Assembly (NCBI GenBank): GCA_958296055.1
Contig: CATQHS010000001.1
Location: 2,204,277-2,268,276, forward strand
Origin: an uncultured Acidimicrobiales bacterium
Lineage (GTDB): Bacteria > Actinomycetota > Acidimicrobiia > Acidimicrobiales > Aldehydirespiratoraceae
Reading direction: 5' to 3'
Length of the DNA stretch: 64,000 nucleotides
Below are positions 8,082-16,253 of this stretch, one piece after another. The notes below the pieces were generated by a model. That model worked only from the letters and a program-made list of their open reading frames with translations, did not search any database and was not told the origin of the DNA. Within the stretch, counting starts at the first letter, position 1. Each line of letters begins with the position of its first letter. The position numbers and the translations under genes were made by a program.

Positions 8082-8084
8082 GCA

Positions 8085-8243
8085 GTGCCTCTACGGCGAT
8101 TCTTCGATCTTTCGCCACGCGAGAGAAATCGGCGGCTTTATTTTGAAAGATTGTGCAATCTTGCCCGTTGGATTGCCAGAATGCTCAGAATCCTGTGGGG
8201 GGTTGCGGACGGTGCCTCGTTCTGGAGAGGTGAACGTGTCCGA
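8085..8243 (+). repeat. ~159-bp direct repeat, copy 1
   Basis: Same length as 10091-10249 with about 5 substitutions; contains AAGATTGTGCAATCTT at 8147-8162. Confidence 0.9.
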
Positions 8244-8252
8244 CTGGATCGG

Positions 8253-8344
8253 AGTGCCTCTACGGCGATTCTTCGATCTTTCGCCACGCGAGAGAAATCG
8301 GCGGCTTTATTTTGAAAGATTGTGCAATCTTGCCCGTTGGATTG
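8253..8344 (+). repeat. 92-bp direct repeat, copy 2 (truncated form of the 159-bp repeat)
   Basis: Identical to 8084-8175; contains AAGATTGTGCAATCTT at 8316-8331. Confidence 0.9.
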
Positions 8345-8388
8345 TGCAATTTGCCCTATTGGAAGCCCTCTGAAGCCTTTCGAGGGAA

Positions 8389-8404
8389 AAGATTGTATAA
8401 TCTT
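8389..8404 (+). promoter_or_regulatory. Operator/promoter upstream of AlbA gene
   Basis: AAGATTGTATAATCTT dyad with embedded TATAAT (8396-8401), 10 nt before GTG start 8411. Confidence 0.55.
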
Positions 8405-8410
8405 GACCCT

Positions 8411-10051
8411 GTGGCTAGCGTTCCCGAGTTCGACAGCATCCCGGCGCAGCTTGAGGAGTTGTCGTTCTGGGAGTTGTTCGGTCGCATTGAGCACGAACGT
8501 CTCGACTTCAAGCGCGGCGTGCCCGATGACATCCTGGAGACGATCCCTGCCATGGCGATGACCGACGGCGGGTTGCTCGTGCATGGCGTCGACTCCTCCG
8601 GCCGGATCACCGGATGCCCGCTCTCCCAGAACACCCAAGATCGCATCACCCGTTACTCCAATGAGTGTGATGTCACGGTGCGGGTGGGGACCGTCTCCGT
8701 CGACGGCATTGAGTTGACGATCACGTCAGTGCCTGAGGTCAGGGGTCGCATCGTCACTACCCCAGATGGAAGATTGCTGAGACGCGTTGGTGGTGACTGC
8801 CAGCCACTGCGCGGTGATTCGCTCACCCGCTTCGTGAGGCAGCGAACAGAGCGCTCTGGCGAAGAGGAGTTCGTCCGAGGCTTCGATCCGTCGATGATCG
8901 ACCTCCGGGCTCTTGATGAAGCACTAAATGCTGGCGGCAGGCCGAAGGCCGAAGAGGCTGACATCGTCAGAGCGCTCGCTGATTTCAAGGTGGCGGCTCA
9001 AACCGAGCCCCAGGCGACTCCGAGTGTGATGACGGCCGGTCTGGTGCTTTTCGGCGACAAGCCTGACAGCGTCATCCCGGGCGCACGGGTGCAGTTAGTT
9101 CGGCGAGCGGGGATCGGGCCTGGGCCTGGTCCGGCTTCGGCCAGGAAGGAATGCACGGGCCCGCTCAGAAAGATCTTCGACTGCTGTATGGATTTCGTCG
9201 CTGACCACACTCACCGGCACGAAATCGTGATCGGAAAGCCGCGCGAGTCTTTGCCCGAGTATCCCGTGGCCGTGCTCCGCGAGGCGGTGCTGAACGCTCT
9301 GGCCCACCGCGACTACGGACTCGTCGGCGCGACGATTGACATAACTGTTTGGGACGACCGCGTTGAGGTCCGCAGTCCCGGTCCGCTGCCCGGACACATC
9401 ACCGTGGAGAACATGCGCAACGATCACTACAGCCGCAACCCCAAAATCATGGGAGTGCTCAAGATCATGAAGTTCGTCGAAGAATTCGGCGAAGGGATCG
9501 ACCGCATGCACAGCGAGATGGAAGCTCGGCTGATGGAACCCCCGATCTTCGATGCGACCCCCGATTCAGTGACGGTCACGCTGCGCAACGCATCCATGGC
9601 CTCCGCCGAGGATCAAGCGTGGCTGATGACATTGGGTTCCGAACCGTTGACGGCTGACGAGCGCCGTACGCTGCTCCTCGCCCGCAGCGAGAGGTTCGTA
9701 ACGCCGCGTAGGCTGAAACGACTCCTTGGCGAATCCGATGTCAACCGGTTGCTGTCAGGGGCGGTGGCCAAGGGATTGCTGGTGCGCACCGGCGAGCGAG
9801 GCGGTTCAAGGTACGAGCTGTCCCCCGAGGTGGTGCTCCGAGCCGGATCGACCGGAATCGCAGCGCGAAGCCGGGTGAAACAGACGCTGATTGACGAGAT
9901 GCAACGCCGAGGCAGCATCTCAACGGCTGAAGGCGTGGAACTGGTCAGCGAACCCGTTGCTGTGGTCCGCGACTTGTTGAACGGACTCGTCGAGGAAGAT
10001 TTGGCCCGGGCTGAGGGCCGGACCCGAGCTCGCCGCTACTACCCCATCTGA
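8411..10051 (+). CDS. Schlafen AlbA_2-domain / HATPase_c_4-type putative transcriptional regulator
   Basis: N-term FWELFGRIEHERLDFKRGVPDDILETIPAMAMTDGGLLVHGVD; YPVAVLREAVLNALAHRDYG; GEGIDRMHSEM typical of the AlbA/ATP-binding family. Confidence 0.8.
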   Translation: MASVPEFDSIPAQLEELSFWELFGRIEHERLDFKRGVPDDILETIPAMAMTDGGLLVHGVDSSGRITGCPLSQNTQDRITRYSNECDVTVRVGTVSVDGIELTITSVPEVRGRIVTTPDGRLLRRVGGDCQPLRGDSLTRFVRQRTERSGEEEFVRGFDPSMIDLRALDEALNAGGRPKAEEADIVRALADFKVAAQTEPQATPSVMTAGLVLFGDKPDSVIPGARVQLVRRAGIGPGPGPASARKECTGPLRKIFDCCMDFVADHTHRHEIVIGKPRESLPEYPVAVLREAVLNALAHRDYGLVGATIDITVWDDRVEVRSPGPLPGHITVENMRNDHYSRNPKIMGVLKIMKFVEEFGEGIDRMHSEMEARLMEPPIFDATPDSVTVTLRNASMASAEDQAWLMTLGSEPLTADERRTLLLARSERFVTPRRLKRLLGESDVNRLLSGAVAKGLLVRTGERGGSRYELSPEVVLRAGSTGIAARSRVKQTLIDEMQRRGSISTAEGVELVSEPVAVVRDLLNGLVEEDLARAEGRTRARRYYPI

Positions 10052-10090
10052 ACGCGGAGTTCCACGGCTCCACCGCCGGGGTTGATCGAT

Positions 10091-10249
10091 GTGCCCCTAC
10101 GGCGATTCTTCGATCTTTCGCCACGCGAGGGAAATCAGCGGCTTTATTTTGAAAGATTGTGCAATCTTGCCCGTTGGATTGCCAGAAGGCTCAGAATCCT
10201 GTGGGGGGTTGCGGACGGTGCCTCGTTCTGGAGAGGTGAACGCGTCCGA
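10091..10249 (+). repeat. ~159-bp direct repeat, copy 3
   Basis: About 97% identical to 8085-8243; contains AAGATTGTGCAATCTT at 10153-10168. Confidence 0.9.
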
Positions 10250-10288
10250 GGCAGTGTCCCGCTGAGTGGTGGGCTTTGGGGTAGCCGC
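10249..10288 (+). repeat. 40-bp inverted repeat, left copy
   Basis: AGGCAGTGTCCCGCTGAGTGGTGGGCTTTGGGGTAGCCGC is the exact reverse complement of 14576-14615. Confidence 0.95.
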
Positions 10289-10313
10289 TGGGTCACAGGG
10301 CCTTGTCCCGCTC

Positions 10314-10946
10314 TCAGAGAGAAGCATCGGGTTGAAGCACGGCTTGAGCAATCTCCCAGGCGTTGGTGCTCGGGTTTGAATTCGGCGGTGAGCCGCCGCC
10401 TTCGTGGCGACTGTCCAACGCGATGGCTCTCCGGCGAGCTTCTTCGATGGCTTCAAGGAGCAACGGTATAGCTTCAGGCCGGATTTTCTTATCATCCATA
10501 AGGCCGAGTTCTTGGCACTTCCTTTGCAAGTCGTGTCGATCTATGTATGCGGTCTGATCTTGTTCGTGCAGTAGCAGCCAAAGCTCGAAGCAGGGGTTCG
10601 ATATTGCCGTGCGAATGCCACTGTCTCTGGCCTCTTGTATAGCGCTCTTGAAGTGAGGATGTTCATCCCTATCAAACACGCACCAGATCTCATCGAAATC
10701 AGGAGCACCCATTCGGTGTCCGGCTTGTTTGTTTCGCTTGGTGTGTTGACGGGCACGGCCGACGAGCGACAGCGGTACCATGCCCGATTCGGCAAAGTCG
10801 ATCTTGATCTGCTGGTTCTGTCTCTCCAAGATCTTGAGGTAATCACGCTCCGTGACTCTGCCTTCGGTTAACACTCGGATGACTCGACGTGTCTCACGGG
10901 GCGAGATAGTTCTTCTGGGATGGCTTCCCGGTGGTTTGCGCTTCAC
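10314..10946 (-). CDS. rloB: RloB-like protein (Toprim-like acidic motifs)
   Basis: LTEGRVTERDYLKIL ... DEIWCVFDRDEHPHFKSAI ... SNPCFELWLLLHE; 4-nt overlap with upstream ATPase gene. Confidence 0.75.
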   Translation of the reverse strand: MKRKPPGSHPRRTISPRETRRVIRVLTEGRVTERDYLKILERQNQQIKIDFAESGMVPLSLVGRARQHTKRNKQAGHRMGAPDFDEIWCVFDRDEHPHFKSAIQEARDSGIRTAISNPCFELWLLLHEQDQTAYIDRHDLQRKCQELGLMDDKKIRPEAIPLLLEAIEEARRRAIALDSRHEGGGSPPNSNPSTNAWEIAQAVLQPDASL

Positions 10947-12352
10947 AAATCTAATGACTCGAAATCGCGAGGATAGCCCTCTGAGCCGAGGGACGGATTT
11001 CGTCCAGCGCTATGAGTTAGCCGACTGCGCCGAGTTGATCGAGCGAAGTCCTCTGGATCGAGGAATGGAACCCCGCCGTACCTTCCCTGGAGATAGCGAC
11101 GCTGCAAGGCCTCGTCGCGCCGAGGCTTGTAGTCGGCCAACTGGAAGAGTTTCGTCGCTCCGGAGTAGTCCTTCTCGGTGAGCCAGATCTGATCGCGTTC
11201 AAGGAAGCGTGCTTCGCTGTCCCCGAGGATCGTGATATCGTGTGAGTTGAAGATGAGCTGCGCGCACCGATGATTGGTCAGCGGGTCTTGAAATAGACCG
11301 ACTAGGCACCGGACGAGATGCGGATGCAGGCTCGCGTCAAGCTCATCAGCCAGTAGAACGTCCCCACGATCAAGGGCATCGAGTACCGGCCCGATCAGGC
11401 CGACCCAAACCAGGGTGCCCTCGGACTCGTCTTGAGGTTCGAACACGACATCGTCGCCGTCGCCCCGGTGAACCAGGCGGACGAACTCGGCCACGACGAA
11501 CTCGTCGTCATCGGGTGTGTCGGGGTCGCCTTTGACCCCACGGAGAATCCGCAGCGCCTTCCGCATCCGGTCAGTTAAGTCCGAGTCAACGGGCGCTCGC
11601 TCTAAGTTTGAGAGCCCCAGATCAGCGGCCAGCAGCAATTCGAGCACTCGAAAGCGGTGGCCGTCCGACTCCAGCATGTGGGCGGTGTGGGCGGCGCGCA
11701 TGCCCCGCGTCGTGGAGTCGGCGAGGAGGAGGTTCCGCTGGAACCATCGGAAGAGAGGGCCGATCTCTTCGTCCGCCGCCGCTCCGGCGACGGACAGAAC
11801 TAGGGCGTTCTCCCGCACCAGCCTGCGCAGCGACTTGCCGGCCGCCCTGAAGCGCGGGCCGAACTCGACGCCGTTCTCGCCGCGGTGGAACACCAGCGCC
11901 TGTCTGCCCTTGGGGAAGTAGTAGGCGTACTCTTGCAGCACTCGGTCATCGTCGACCTCGAATCCGTACTGCCACCGGACCTCGCGCAATATGAGATCGA
12001 TGTCGAACCGCGACGGGCGATCCCGCGAGCTGGCGTCGAGCAGGAAGGGCCTGCGAAATACGCCGCTTCCCTCTCCCCCCTGACTGAACGAGCCCATTAC
12101 CAAGTACCGCATGTCGGCGAGCGCCCGAAGGATCGTCGTTTTGCCGGACGCGTTGGCGCCGAACACGCCGGCCGCGGGAAGCACGCGGACGGGTCGCGCC
12201 GCGGCCGTGGGGAGGTCCCGCACGACTTCCTCGGCTGACATTTGGGCGGCGAGGAGAGACAGATGCACCTCGTCGCGGTACGAACGCACATTGTCCGCAG
12301 TGAACGACAGCAGGGCGCTCAGCGGACTCAGCCCCGGAATTTCGGTCTTCAT
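10943..12352 (-). CDS. rloA: AAA15/RloA-like ATPase
   Basis: Walker A GANASGKTT; LLADELDASLHPHLVRCLVGLFQ; FNSHDITIL; ORF extends to 12406 but MKTEIPGLS at 12352 is the more natural start. Confidence 0.75.
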   Translation of the reverse strand: MKTEIPGLSPLSALLSFTADNVRSYRDEVHLSLLAAQMSAEEVVRDLPTAAARPVRVLPAAGVFGANASGKTTILRALADMRYLVMGSFSQGGEGSGVFRRPFLLDASSRDRPSRFDIDLILREVRWQYGFEVDDDRVLQEYAYYFPKGRQALVFHRGENGVEFGPRFRAAGKSLRRLVRENALVLSVAGAAADEEIGPLFRWFQRNLLLADSTTRGMRAAHTAHMLESDGHRFRVLELLLAADLGLSNLERAPVDSDLTDRMRKALRILRGVKGDPDTPDDDEFVVAEFVRLVHRGDGDDVVFEPQDESEGTLVWVGLIGPVLDALDRGDVLLADELDASLHPHLVRCLVGLFQDPLTNHRCAQLIFNSHDITILGDSEARFLERDQIWLTEKDYSGATKLFQLADYKPRRDEALQRRYLQGRYGGVPFLDPEDFARSTRRSRLTHSAGRNPSLGSEGYPRDFESLDL

Positions 12353-12511
12353 AGCCGTATTATTGCAGGAAACCCTCACAAAAGCAAATCTAACGACAAG
12401 AATCACCGCTGGAGGTTCTAGCCGCGGCCCCGGCGACAGTCGTCCGGCCCCCGCGGCTTTGGGTTCCTGCGTTTTAGAACATCATTGAATATAGTTAGTT
12501 ATACTGAATAC

Positions 12512-12760
12512 ATGCCACGATTGGTTACAAGGATCGACGCCGAACTGGAGTCCCAGATTGCCGATCTCGTCGCCGCTGGAGTCGTCAGCTCTCGCTCCGA
12601 CGCGGTTCGTTGCGGTTTGCGGGTGCTGATCGACCAGCACAGACGCCACATGACCGGGGAAGCCATCGTGCAGGGCTACTTGAAACATCCCCAAACCGAG
12701 GAAGAGCTGGCGTGGGCCCACGACAGCGCCACGGCCATGATTGAGGGGGAGCCCTGGTGA
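12512..12760 (+). CDS. Ribbon-helix-helix antitoxin-like protein
   Basis: MPRLVTRIDAELESQIADLVAAGVVSSRSDAVRCGLRVLIDQHRR, RHH fold pattern. Confidence 0.65.
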   Translation: MPRLVTRIDAELESQIADLVAAGVVSSRSDAVRCGLRVLIDQHRRHMTGEAIVQGYLKHPQTEEELAWAHDSATAMIEGEPW

Positions 12761-12933
12761 CACCGGAGGCTGCAGGGCGAGCGGAGATCTGCATGGACGC
12801 TGGGGCGCGACACAGCCAAAGCGCTGGGACGAACTGGTAGCCCGCGGCCCCAGACCGAGGGGCTGCGCGAAGCCCTGACCCAAGCCGTGGACACTGGCGG
12901 CGGCGATATTCACATCAGAACGATGGTTCCACT

Positions 12934-13365
12934 TCATCGACGAAGGCACCGAGGAGCACGACCGGTCAAGTAAGCCTCCGTGCAGAGGAACCGCCAGAAC
13001 CCGAAGCTCAGTTCGGCGATCACTCTGTCGTGGGACTCCTCCTCGTTGCGCAGGGATCGCTCTCGAGCCGTTTTGATGATGGACCAGGCTTTGGCTCTGT
13101 GCTTTCCTGAGAACAGTTGCCGCCGGTGATACCACGCCATTGGCCATCTCTGAGACCTCCCGTAGGCGACGAGCGCTCTGTCGACCGCATTGCGGAAGAT
13201 GACTTCTAGGCGACCGAGATCTTCGTGTAGCGATGCTCCAACCCGCGCGTTCCAGTCGTAGAGGCTGATCGCCACAGCCACATCGCCGCCAGCGGCCTTC
13301 AAGTACGGATCAATCCTGGCTGCCGTGAGTCTCTCAACGAGGATTTGAGGGTTGAACGTTGACAT
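12934..13365 (-). CDS. Abi-like family protein, possibly C-terminally truncated
   Basis: LTAARIDPYLKAAGGDVAVAISLYDWNARVGASLHEDLGRLEVIFRNAVDRAL resembles the Abi-like N-terminal region; 143 aa is short for the family. Confidence 0.6.
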   Translation of the reverse strand: MSTFNPQILVERLTAARIDPYLKAAGGDVAVAISLYDWNARVGASLHEDLGRLEVIFRNAVDRALVAYGRSQRWPMAWYHRRQLFSGKHRAKAWSIIKTARERSLRNEEESHDRVIAELSFGFWRFLCTEAYLTGRAPRCLRR

Positions 13366-13387
13366 GGCGCGCCGATTGCCTTATAGT
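13359..13387 (+). promoter_or_regulatory. Near-consensus sigma70-type promoter
   Basis: TTGACA (13359-13364), 17-nt spacer, TATAGT (13382-13387). Confidence 0.65.
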
Positions 13388-13400
13388 GCCTTCTTGAAAG

Positions 13401-13438
13401 CCCCGGAACCGTCCCTGCCTTCGGGCAAACGGCCGGGG
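13401..13438 (+). other. Hairpin with UUCG tetraloop just downstream of the promoter
   Basis: CCCCGG/CCGGGG, CCGT/ACGG, TGCC-TTCG-GGCA nested. Confidence 0.6.
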
Positions 13439-13865
13439 TTACGCCCTTCTAGCCGCAGACTGCGCCGCGACAGCGCGCAGGAGGGTGCCTCACGGCGGCC
13501 CGCCCGGCCCGGCCCATTCATTGCGCCGCGCCGCGATCTCATCAGCGGCCCGTTCTCGTTGAGAAACCCGTGCGGCGCTTCTTGACCGACCAGACCTTTC
13601 TCCCATCGACTGTCATCTCGCGATCCATTCAGTTTCGATCCCTTTGAGGATTGTACGCGCGGGCACCGCTGGTCAGGGCTGACCGGGATCGCCGCCTCGG
13701 TCTGCGGCACACTCGCCCAGACCCGCCCGGCCCGGGGCATGGACGGTGACAGCAGGGTGGCACCGGCTGTTGCGGCCGGAGGCGGCGTGTCATCGGCCCG
13801 CAGACCCGCCAGACGCCGGGCTGAGCCGGGGCGAGCAGTCCGGCCCCGACGCGCGAGTCCAATCT

Positions 13866-13983
13866 GCCTCAGCCGGCTTCGCTGTGGGTCACGGGGGCTT
13901 CGCCCATCCACTCCCGCAGGGTGTTCTTCAGCTTCGTCTGCTGGATGAACAGGTCGTGCTCCACCGCGACGGACCCGGCGGCC
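13866..13983 (-). pseudogene. Duplicated 3' end of inositol-3-phosphate synthase gene
   Basis: 118 bp with 4 mismatches to 14946-15063, same orientation, exactly 1080 bp apart. Confidence 0.9.
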
Positions 13984-14136
13984 GGCCGGTGCTCATCGTG
14001 ACTCGCAGCAAAGTCGTGCCGGTGCAGGGTTTGCGCTACTGGGGCTGAGACGGCGCGACCTGGATGGCACTGTGGTCATATCTAAGGGCTTATGCTATTG
14101 AATCAGCTCAAATGATCAAGGAAGGAGGCACCACAG

Positions 14137-14370
14137 ATGAAGAAGCGGGACAAGAAAACTAAGAAGAACAAGAAGAACCAGAAAACTAACCAGTACGAAG
14201 GATTGAGCAACCAGGGCATATACAAACCCGGTCCATGGCCGGAAGGCAAACGGCCAGACCTGGTTAATCACCCTATGCCTGGGCGTATCCCTGCGGGGTG
14301 GCCTCACGGGAAGCCGGTTGAAGTTCTCAAGTTCCAGACGGAAGAGGCGGCCTCAGACAAGACCCCTTAA
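14137..14370 (+). CDS. Small Lys-rich hypothetical protein (77 aa)
   Basis: Strong RBS (aaggaaggagg) before ATG; MKKRDKKTKKNKKNQKTNQYEGLSNQGIYKPGPWPEGK... Confidence 0.55.
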   Translation: MKKRDKKTKKNKKNQKTNQYEGLSNQGIYKPGPWPEGKRPDLVNHPMPGRIPAGWPHGKPVEVLKFQTEEAASDKTP

Positions 14371-14575
14371 CCAGCCGACGATCTGGTCGTAGTCCAGGCC
14401 GCCAGAGCCAAGCGCTGCGAGAGCAGTCGCCGAAGAACGCGGACGGCTGCCGCTCACATAACCCTCCCCTCTGTGGCAGAATCAGAAAGGGTCATCGGCG
14501 TGTCCTCCTTGATGAGTGGGTGATTGTTCTCGCCGAGGATCACGTCGATGACCCCCCTAGCGGTGGGACCCCCCG

Positions 14576-14615
14576 GCGGCTACCCCAAAGCCCACCACTC
14601 AGCGGGACACTGCCT
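14576..14615 (-). repeat. 40-bp inverted repeat, right copy
   Basis: Exact reverse complement of 10249-10288. Confidence 0.95.
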
Positions 14616-14681
14616 TTTGCTGGACGCTGGGCCCGCTCGCAGATCTTGCAAAAAGGTTGAAAGTCGACTACCTTTCTCGTT

Positions 14682-14762
14682 GACGAGAGGCACGGAGCAC
14701 CCGTCTACGTGGGGCGACCCAAGTACCCAGCTTGCTGGTTTCAGGCGGTCCGGCCTCTCGTC
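14682..14762 (+). ncRNA. Candidate structured RNA, unit 1
   Basis: Closing stem GACGAGAGGC/GCCTCTCGTC; CCGTC/GGCGG; TGGG-GCGA-CCCA GNRA hairpin; CCAG-CTTG-CTGG hairpin. Confidence 0.55.
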
Positions 14763-14840
14763 TCGCTTCTAGCACTGATTGCTGGTGCGCTAGTCGAGCG
14801 GGTTGTGCTCCGCTTCGGGTACCTGCTACTTTTTTGTGTA

Positions 14841-14927
14841 GACGAGAGGCGCGGGTAGCCGTCCACCTGGGGAAACCCAAGTACCTGGCTCTACTGGAGT
14901 CGGCTTCAGACGGTCCGGCCTCTCGTC
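14841..14927 (+). ncRNA. Candidate structured RNA, unit 2
   Basis: Same closing stem; CCGTC/GACGG; TGGG-GAAA-CCCA GNRA hairpin; CTGGCTC-TACTG-GAGTCGG hairpin. Confidence 0.55.
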
Positions 14928-14948
14928 TCGCGTTCTAGCTGACGCGCC

Positions 14949-16253
14949 TCAGCCGGCTTCGCTGTGGGTCACGGGCGCTTCGCCCATCCACTCCCGCAGG
15001 GTGTTCTTCAGCTTCGTCTGCTGGATGAACAGGTCGTGCTCCACTGCGGCGGACCCAGCGGCCTGGGGGGCTTTGAGGTAGAAGCTCAGCCACTCCTGCA
15101 CCCCCGACTCGCCAGCTCGGGCGGCCAGGTCCATGAACAGGGCCAAGTCCAGCACGATAGGGGCGGCCAGGATCGAGTCTCGGCACAAGAAATCGACCTT
15201 GATCTGCATCGGATACCCCAGCCACCCGAAGATGTCGATGCTGTCCCAGCCCTCCTTGTCGTCGCCCCGGGGCGGGTAGTAGTTGATGCGCACCACATGG
15301 TCGATCTTGCCGTACAGATCGGGGTAGACGCCGGGCTGGAGGATGGTGTCGAGCACGCCCAGCTTCGACACCTCCTTGCTCCGGAAGTTCTCGGGGGCGT
15401 CGAGCACCTCGCCGTCCCGGTTGCCCAGGATGTTGGTGGAATACCAGCCCCGCAGCCCCAGCATCCGGGCCTTGAAACCCGGTGCCAGCATGGTCTTCAT
15501 CAAGGTCTGACCGGTCTTGAAGTCCTTGCCGGCGATGGGCACGCCCCGGGCCTCGGCCAGCTCTACCATGCAGGGCAGATCCACGGTCAGGTTGGGGGCA
15601 CCGTTGGCGAAGGGCACCTCGCTCTGCAGGGCCGCGTAGGCGTAGATCTGGCTGGGGGCGATGCCGGGATCGTCCGCCCTCAGCCCGGCCTCGAAAGCGG
15701 CCGCCGACTGATGCACCCCCGACGGCTCCGAGAACGCCTCGGTGGACCCGCACCACACCATCACCAGCCGGTCGCAGCCGTGGCGGCCCCGGAAGTCCTC
15801 GATGTCGGCCATCAAGGCCTGGGCCTGCTCCCACTTAGAGGCGACGGCTTTGACCCGCACCCCCTCCAGCCTCGACACCCAGGCCCGGTCGAAGACGGCG
15901 CCCATGGCCACCACCCCCTCCAGCTCGGCCGATATGGCCCCCAAGTCCTTGTCGGCCAGCACGCCGCAGGTGCGGGCCGCCTCCATGGCGTTGGCCGAGA
16001 TGGGGTCCCACCCGCCGAACACCAAGTCGTCGAGGCCGGCCAGGGGGACGAAGTCGCGGATGAGGGGGTTGCGGCCCTCCGAGCGGGCCCCCAGCCGGAT
16101 GTGGGCCATCTGGCTGACCGAGCCGATGGGCGGGGCCAGGCCCCGCCGGGCCGCCATCACGCCGGCGATGAAGGTGGACGCCACTGCGCCCAGGCCCGGG
16201 GTGAGCACGCCGAGCCGGCCCGCGGCGGGGGAGATGAATCTTGCTTCTGTCAT
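14949..16253 (-). CDS. ino1: Inositol-3-phosphate synthase
   Basis: GVLTPGLGAVASTFIAGVMAARRG; GKDFKTGQTLMKTMLAPGFKARMLGLRGWYSTNILGNRDG; start ATG 16253. Confidence 0.9.
   Translation of the reverse strand: MTEARFISPAAGRLGVLTPGLGAVASTFIAGVMAARRGLAPPIGSVSQMAHIRLGARSEGRNPLIRDFVPLAGLDDLVFGGWDPISANAMEAARTCGVLADKDLGAISAELEGVVAMGAVFDRAWVSRLEGVRVKAVASKWEQAQALMADIEDFRGRHGCDRLVMVWCGSTEAFSEPSGVHQSAAAFEAGLRADDPGIAPSQIYAYAALQSEVPFANGAPNLTVDLPCMVELAEARGVPIAGKDFKTGQTLMKTMLAPGFKARMLGLRGWYSTNILGNRDGEVLDAPENFRSKEVSKLGVLDTILQPGVYPDLYGKIDHVVRINYYPPRGDDKEGWDSIDIFGWLGYPMQIKVDFLCRDSILAAPIVLDLALFMDLAARAGESGVQEWLSFYLKAPQAAGSAAVEHDLFIQQTKLKNTLREWMGEAPVTHSEAG

Follow-up and report, generated by a model that had tools for sequence, protein, structure and literature searches.

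The window analysed here, a stretch of 64,000 nucleotides from the genome (G000) of an uncultured Acidimicrobiales bacterium, carries close to its ino1 gene two similar segments that had been read, from the letters alone, as paralogous structured RNAs. The locus therefore raises the question of whether these units are RNA, to which family they belong, and what they might do. Both belong to a real structured-RNA family. They are very probably genuine small RNAs (sRNAs) related to the kind that is linked to DUF3800 genes, a relationship which the original prediction missed and which is seen in relatives that adjoin DUF3800 genes elsewhere and in an architecture shared with the DUF3800-VII motif.

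The two units and their putative promoters

The tandem pair is present in the sequence with the predicted spacing of 159 bp between the paralogous units. The 10-bp closing helix, GACGAGAGGC/GCCTCTCGTC, has the same letters in both. Inside it, the inner helix changes from CCGTC/GGCGG in unit 1 to CCGTC/GACGG in unit 2, which turns a G-U into an A-U pair, and the hairpin TGGG-GCGA-CCCA is replaced by TGGG-GAAA-CCCA, with a GNRA loop in either case. The third hairpin retains its pairing in both units despite the differing sequence. The original prediction had placed the units correctly but drawn their ends too tightly: the conserved element runs from 2 nt 5' of the closing helix to 3 nt 3' of it, and measures about 86–92 nt (Table 1). 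Its architecture is a conserved three-way junction, made up of the 10-bp closing helix, a 1-nt bulge, a 3-bp helix, a 5' internal loop, a 5-bp helix, the GNRA hairpin and a second hairpin.

In folding calculations, both units were more stable than dinucleotide shuffles (z of -3.0 and -4.6). The two copies differ at 5 of 58 paired and 10 of 27 unpaired positions, and all five paired changes leave the pair intact (P = 0.008 against random substitution). Such structure-neutral changes suggest that both copies have been under selection after the duplication.

Table 1. Coordinates of the features discussed. Positions are those of the window, except where a locus is named.
Feature	Position	Strand	Details
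RNA unit 1 (sRNA copy 1)	14680..14765	+	Three-way junction; closing helix 14682-14691/14753-14762; GNRA loop GCGA 14714-14717
RNA unit 2 (sRNA copy 2)	14839..14930	+	Closing helix 14841-14850/14918-14927; GNRA loop GAAA 14872-14875
Putative promoter of unit 1	14646..14674	+	TTGCAA 14646-14651, 17-nt spacer, TACCTT 14669-14674; -10-like box starts 11 nt upstream of unit 1
Putative promoter of unit 2	14803..14832	+	TTGTGC 14803-14808, 18-nt spacer, TACTTT 14827-14832
3' end of the intact ino1 gene	14946..15063	-	Right-hand copy of the direct repeat (118 bp)
Displaced copy of the ino1 3' end	13866..13983	-	96.6% identical; with 14946-15063 brackets the RNA-bearing segment of about 1 kb
77-aa Lys-rich ORF	14137..14370	+	In the RNA-bearing segment
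Broken DUF3800 gene	L063:8013-8900		Beside intact RNA
Broken DUF3800 gene	L075:5160-5501		Beside intact RNA
Broken DUF3800 gene	L078:5896-6609		Beside intact RNA

A putative promoter precedes each unit. No promoter passed a strict sigma-70 scan for either of them, so that their status is taken from the conservation of the -10-like box TANNNT. The 14 Acidimicrobiia copies in the core set all have it, starting 10–12 nt upstream of the element. This box starts at -9 in the copy of locus L093, and TATAAT stands at the corresponding position of the DUF3800-VII copy of Cupriavidus.

A second conserved unit lies directly after the RNA at L061:8332-8440 and in the matching parts of L071, L072 and L073. 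It is formed by TTGCCA-18-TATCGT and then the hairpin AACCCCGAGGGGTCGCTCTTGAGCGGCTTCCGGGGTT, is near-identical in the four loci before they diverge, and is possibly another sRNA.

Relatives, covariation and genomic setting

A covariance model built from only the two window units (R1) was run over 299 genomes of the same order and found six confident copies beyond the window, with E-values from 6e-18 to 5e-12, which is beyond chance. In addition, a 27-base degenerate pattern scanned over 85,488 species genomes matched 16 loci; 12 of these belong to Acidimicrobiia, and R1 confirmed every one, including six that were new. The pattern matches in L068, L069, L080 and L081 (Hymenobacter, Streptomyces and Nonomuraea, of other phyla or classes) are not found by R1 and were set aside as chance, as were the weak R1 matches L056–L059, which have neither the conserved loop nor the flank. 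Model R2 found nothing outside Acidimicrobiales among 398 genomes of the phylum. Nucleotide searches with the units gave no match among plasmids and phages, a DNA search of 51 genomes of the family gave short chance matches only, and no copy was found on viral contigs, either by three sequence patterns or through the DUF3800 protein.

The occurrence of the family is sporadic (3 of 41 genomes in the family of the window's bacterium, 6 of 39 in another family), with one to three copies per genome. The window genome has two, both in the window. A further copy of the RNA, at L118:1501-1590, is decayed and truncated at its 3' end; it lies 5.7 kb from an intact copy of the same genome.

The homologues do covary. 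In 16 aligned sequences, 14 of 29 pairs show double compensatory changes, with 33 two-sided-change cells against 5.1 in shuffles, and 98.5% of the pair cells are paired, a value that falls to about 45% when the partner is slid by one column; these counts, and the 9 of 29 pairs with two-sided changes in a smaller set of 14 distinct sequences, come from a structure-fitted alignment that is biased towards structure, while the structure of R1 was fixed before any homologue was known. This pattern of changes is that of a structured RNA and not of a coding sequence. The strand is given by the non-Watson-Crick pairs, which across the alignment number 26 G-U against 2 A-C when read on the + strand, so that the + strand is the RNA. 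The first hairpin loop is GNRA, on this strand only, in 16 of 16 aligned copies (GCGA, GAAA, GGAA, GAGA and GCAA in Acidimicrobiia, GUGA in L098), and the original assignment to the + strand therefore stands. Among more distant copies, the loop is GCAA in L096 and GGAA in L100, and L099 has a larger loop.

Two other readings of the locus are best judged against these data. Read on the - strand, the units follow immediately after the ino1 stop codon, and this strand folds about equally well, as would be expected of a 3' untranslated or terminator structure of ino1. On the other hand, the homologues are not beside ino1, the GNRA loops and the wobble asymmetry belong to the + strand, and a terminator-like U-run is absent; we regard this origin as highly implausible. 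The second reading is that of a DNA-level element, such as an attC-like hairpin recombination site, a REP-like repeat or the end of a mobile element, which would be recognised as single-stranded DNA. It would suit the position directly at gene ends, the sporadic distribution and the bracketing of the island by a duplication of the ino1 end. Nevertheless, the excess of G-U pairs and the loop changes that stay within GNRA point to RNA, and the low number of copies per genome and the conserved -10 box also speak against it, which makes it very improbable. The attC identity itself was rejected, as the integron core sites RYYYAAC/GTTRRRY occur in none of the 16 aligned copies.

The duplication is real, as predicted: two copies of the ino1 3' end, 118 bp long and 1080 bp apart, stand around the segment that bears the RNA. 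The repeat begins just behind the stop codon and resembles a scar left by integration at the end of a gene; an integrase was not found beside it. The G+C content of the segment and of the island to its left is about 60%, against 72% to the right. This low-G+C defence island (8085-14945) ends at the ino1 stop codon, has the RNA pair at its edge, and contains SLFN_AlbA_2, AbiLi/AbiLii-like (RloB-like) genes, a ParD-like fragment and a PD-T4-5-like fragment. Near-identical repeats (95–100%) at 8084-8344 and 10084-10249 flank the SLFN_AlbA_2/HATPase gene of the island, which suggests a mobile or duplicated cassette. The 77-aa ORF had no match in Pfam, PADLOC or NCBIfam. As a partner of the RNA it was rejected, for it gave only a weak 41-residue match, has no convincing relative and is not linked to the RNA elsewhere.

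Linkage to DUF3800 genes and possible role

In the relatives, the RNA stands convergent with DUF3800 genes, 0–15 nt from their stop codons in about ten loci, and 3–5 nt in the Acidimicrobiia loci L063, L064, L075 and L078. A DUF3800 gene adjoins the RNA also in L093, L096, L098, L099 and L100. The L093 gene, which is intact, emerged from a search of the carrier genomes for DUF3800; its link to the RNA was not known before, and a divergent copy was found at the expected spot, scoring 45 bits with R2. Distant DUF3800 proteins, of 25–33% identity, were then examined in other actinobacterial genomes and a Streptomyces plasmid, and R2 matched at the expected spot beside one of them (L098, E 0.0012). 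Model R3 takes in L093 and L098 and leaves out L096, L099 and L100; over the held-out loci (61 kb), its top three matches were L099, L096 and L100 (E 6e-5 to 3e-4). All three are convergent with their DUF3800 gene and lie no more than about 15 nt from its stop. The position beside the DUF3800 stop thus correctly predicted further divergent copies of the RNA. Seven DUF3800 genes of other subfamilies in the genomes of carriers (L084, L085, L088, L089, L091, L092 and L094), which served as negative controls, had nothing convincing nearby.

DUF3800 is predicted to cut RNA. It has been modelled as an RNase H fold, and an association with both Cas12 systems and ncRNAs has been described (PMC10910872). 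Seven aligned DUF3800 proteins keep the residues D11, D15, H61, K93, E119 and D185 (L064 numbering), which from the alignment is consistent with an acidic active site. The L082 protein, modelled alone with AlphaFold, gave a pLDDT of 37.

The RNA can outlive the protein gene. L082/L064 represents an intact pair of DUF3800 and RNA, while in L063, L075 and L078 the DUF3800 gene is broken, by a frameshift or the loss of its front part, beside an RNA that is intact. Copies are also kept in genome G109, where no DUF3800 was found, and in the window genome, where a search with PF12686 (DUF3800) gave no match. The window pair is unusual in being a tandem in a genome with no detectable DUF3800. Several carriers have other DUF3800 genes in trans.

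Most probably, the units represent the RNA component of a small toxin-like or defence-like module whose protein is missing here. As the best overall explanation, to which we give a probability of roughly 45%, we propose a separately transcribed DUF3800-linked sRNA that acts as an antitoxin-like RNA. Each unit would be transcribed on its own as an sRNA of about 90 nt and would fold into a compact particle, which the RNase H-fold DUF3800 protein encoded next to it would bind. The bound RNA may then hold DUF3800 in check, as the abiF RNA does AbiF, in the manner of a type III-like RNA antitoxin. The convergent layout would keep the RNA and DUF3800 together on a single compact cassette that is mobile, each under a promoter of its own, and copies that have lost DUF3800, such as the tandem pair of the window, might persist as solitary antitoxin-like RNAs, here in a defence island beside ino1.

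The alternative closest to this mechanism takes the RNA as the scaffold or guide of a DUF3800 nuclease that attacks invading nucleic acid, with the orphans acting in trans or being relics. It is in keeping with the tight linkage to an RNase H-fold protein, the reported association of DUF3800 with Cas12 systems and ncRNAs (PMC10910872), the DUF3800 genes found in trans, and the defence island around the window pair. However, the RNA is conserved from end to end, finishes in the closing helix, and has no variable guide-like segment. Moreover, the orphan copies in G000 and G109 and the DUF3800 genes that decay before their RNA are easier to reconcile with an antitoxin than with a guide. That orphans persist could also be due to their partner having been lost recently. 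Against the antitoxin mechanism stand the missing partner in the window genome and the convergent layout, which departs from the same-strand order of type III systems. A DUF3800 gene of Legionella, which may or may not be RNA-linked, came out as essential in transposon sequencing (PMC7811196); this fits an antidote better than a toxin and counts against the antitoxin reading. Weighing the orphans and the decayed genes against the Legionella result, we hold the antitoxin mechanism, which is argued by analogy, only tentatively, and the nuclease subunit to be unlikely.

The neighbours of some copies offer a further alternative, in which a trans-acting or regulatory sRNA stands alone on mobile defence or toxin-antitoxin islands and has a host protein or mRNA, not DUF3800, as its partner. 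In six loci the RNA is preceded, 39 nt away and on the same strand, by the end of a HicB-like gene (frameshifted in L062); in L062 the RNA faces, in addition, a PemK-like toxin and its antitoxin of the SocA type, and the L065 copy adjoins AbiEi/AbiEii, all in the absence of DUF3800, while L066 has no such partner. The -10 box of its own and the two functional-looking tandem copies in the window are also in accord with a stand-alone sRNA. Nonetheless, the neighbours differ between loci, with DUF3800 as the only partner common to distant lineages, and in the family with the HicB-linked copies all carriers belong to one genus, so that these copies probably trace to one inheritance. We consider this alternative quite improbable.

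More broadly, one may speculate, with considerable doubt, that three-way-junction sRNAs placed tail-to-tail with RNase H-fold DUF3800 genes form a widespread, so far overlooked superfamily of antitoxins across Actinobacteria and Proteobacteria, in which solitary duplicated copies would immunise genomes against incoming DUF3800 modules. The intact pair L082/L064, the broken pair L063 and the orphan tandem pair of the window provide compact test cases, with which the antitoxin and the nuclease-subunit readings can be tested directly against each other.

Comparison with known RNA families

The window units matched none of the 4227 covariance models of Rfam, in agreement with the original prediction, which had recognised no known family. 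For the DUF3800-linked RNAs, no function was found in the literature, as far as could be found.

In type III systems, the antitoxins stand before their toxin gene on the same strand. The abiF RNA and the DUF3800 motifs were reportedly described in the same 2017 survey. The abiF RNA (RF03085) and the type III antitoxins resemble the window pair in being tandem structured RNA motifs, and the abiF motifs, which are linked to a protein of the abortive-infection type, AbiF, bind this protein and neutralise it (PMC12373285). The abiF motifs are short hairpins that precede their gene and share its transcript, whereas the new family has three-way junctions, putative promoters of its own, and a position that is convergent to DUF3800 or solitary. 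Likewise, the type III layout of tandem repeats upstream of a co-transcribed toxin is not seen in the window, where the units have one putative promoter each and are not followed by a toxin gene on the + strand.

Further DUF3800 motifs, such as DUF3800-I (RF02969), DUF3800-VI (RF02915) and DUF3800-IX (RF02968), are also structured RNAs named after their association with DUF3800, and none of them gave a match. DUF3800-VI is a small two-hairpin leader upstream of DUF3800 on the same strand, while DUF3800-VII and the new family are convergent. DUF3800-VI RNAs were observed at L108:937-988, L110:937-988 and L111:981-1037, on plasmids of Burkholderiaceae and Agrobacterium.

DUF3800-VII (RF02967) is the closest comparison. 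On plasmids of Cupriavidus and Rhizobium that emerged from the protein search, a DUF3800-VII RNA stands convergent with a DUF3800-like gene, and these copies score 77.8 and 58.4 with RF02967. The same model gave no match in the window at E up to 5–10 and none in the relatives, its gathering threshold of 36.2 bits not being reached. Further differences are the U-tail after the closing helix of DUF3800-VII, which the new family lacks, the lengths of the helices, and the DUF3800-like gene that adjoins DUF3800-VII and has no counterpart in the window genome.

On the other hand, DUF3800-VII is likewise about 90 nt long and convergent with a DUF3800-like gene in L101 (Cupriavidus) and L106, and in L101 its 3' end lies 6 nt from the stop codon, a position as in the new family. 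Both share one plan: closing helix, 5' internal loop, inner helix, hairpin with a 4-nt loop, 2-nt linker, second hairpin and a 5–7-nt linker. Compared with the RF02967 structure, the R2 and R3 structures have the same three-way-junction architecture. R2 and the L101 copy align from end to end, though weakly (15.1 bits), with the copy placed within 3 nt of the Rfam match, and the string GCGCGGAG is common to this copy and the new family. The shared position and plan, the weak alignment and the common string, together with the blindness of RF02967 to the new copies, argue for a common kind and not for membership in RF02967; a common origin is probable. Position and shape thus connect the actinobacterial copies of the new family with DUF3800-VII, and we propose that this previously uncatalogued RNA is a new branch, found in Actinobacteria, of the sRNA kind that is linked to DUF3800.
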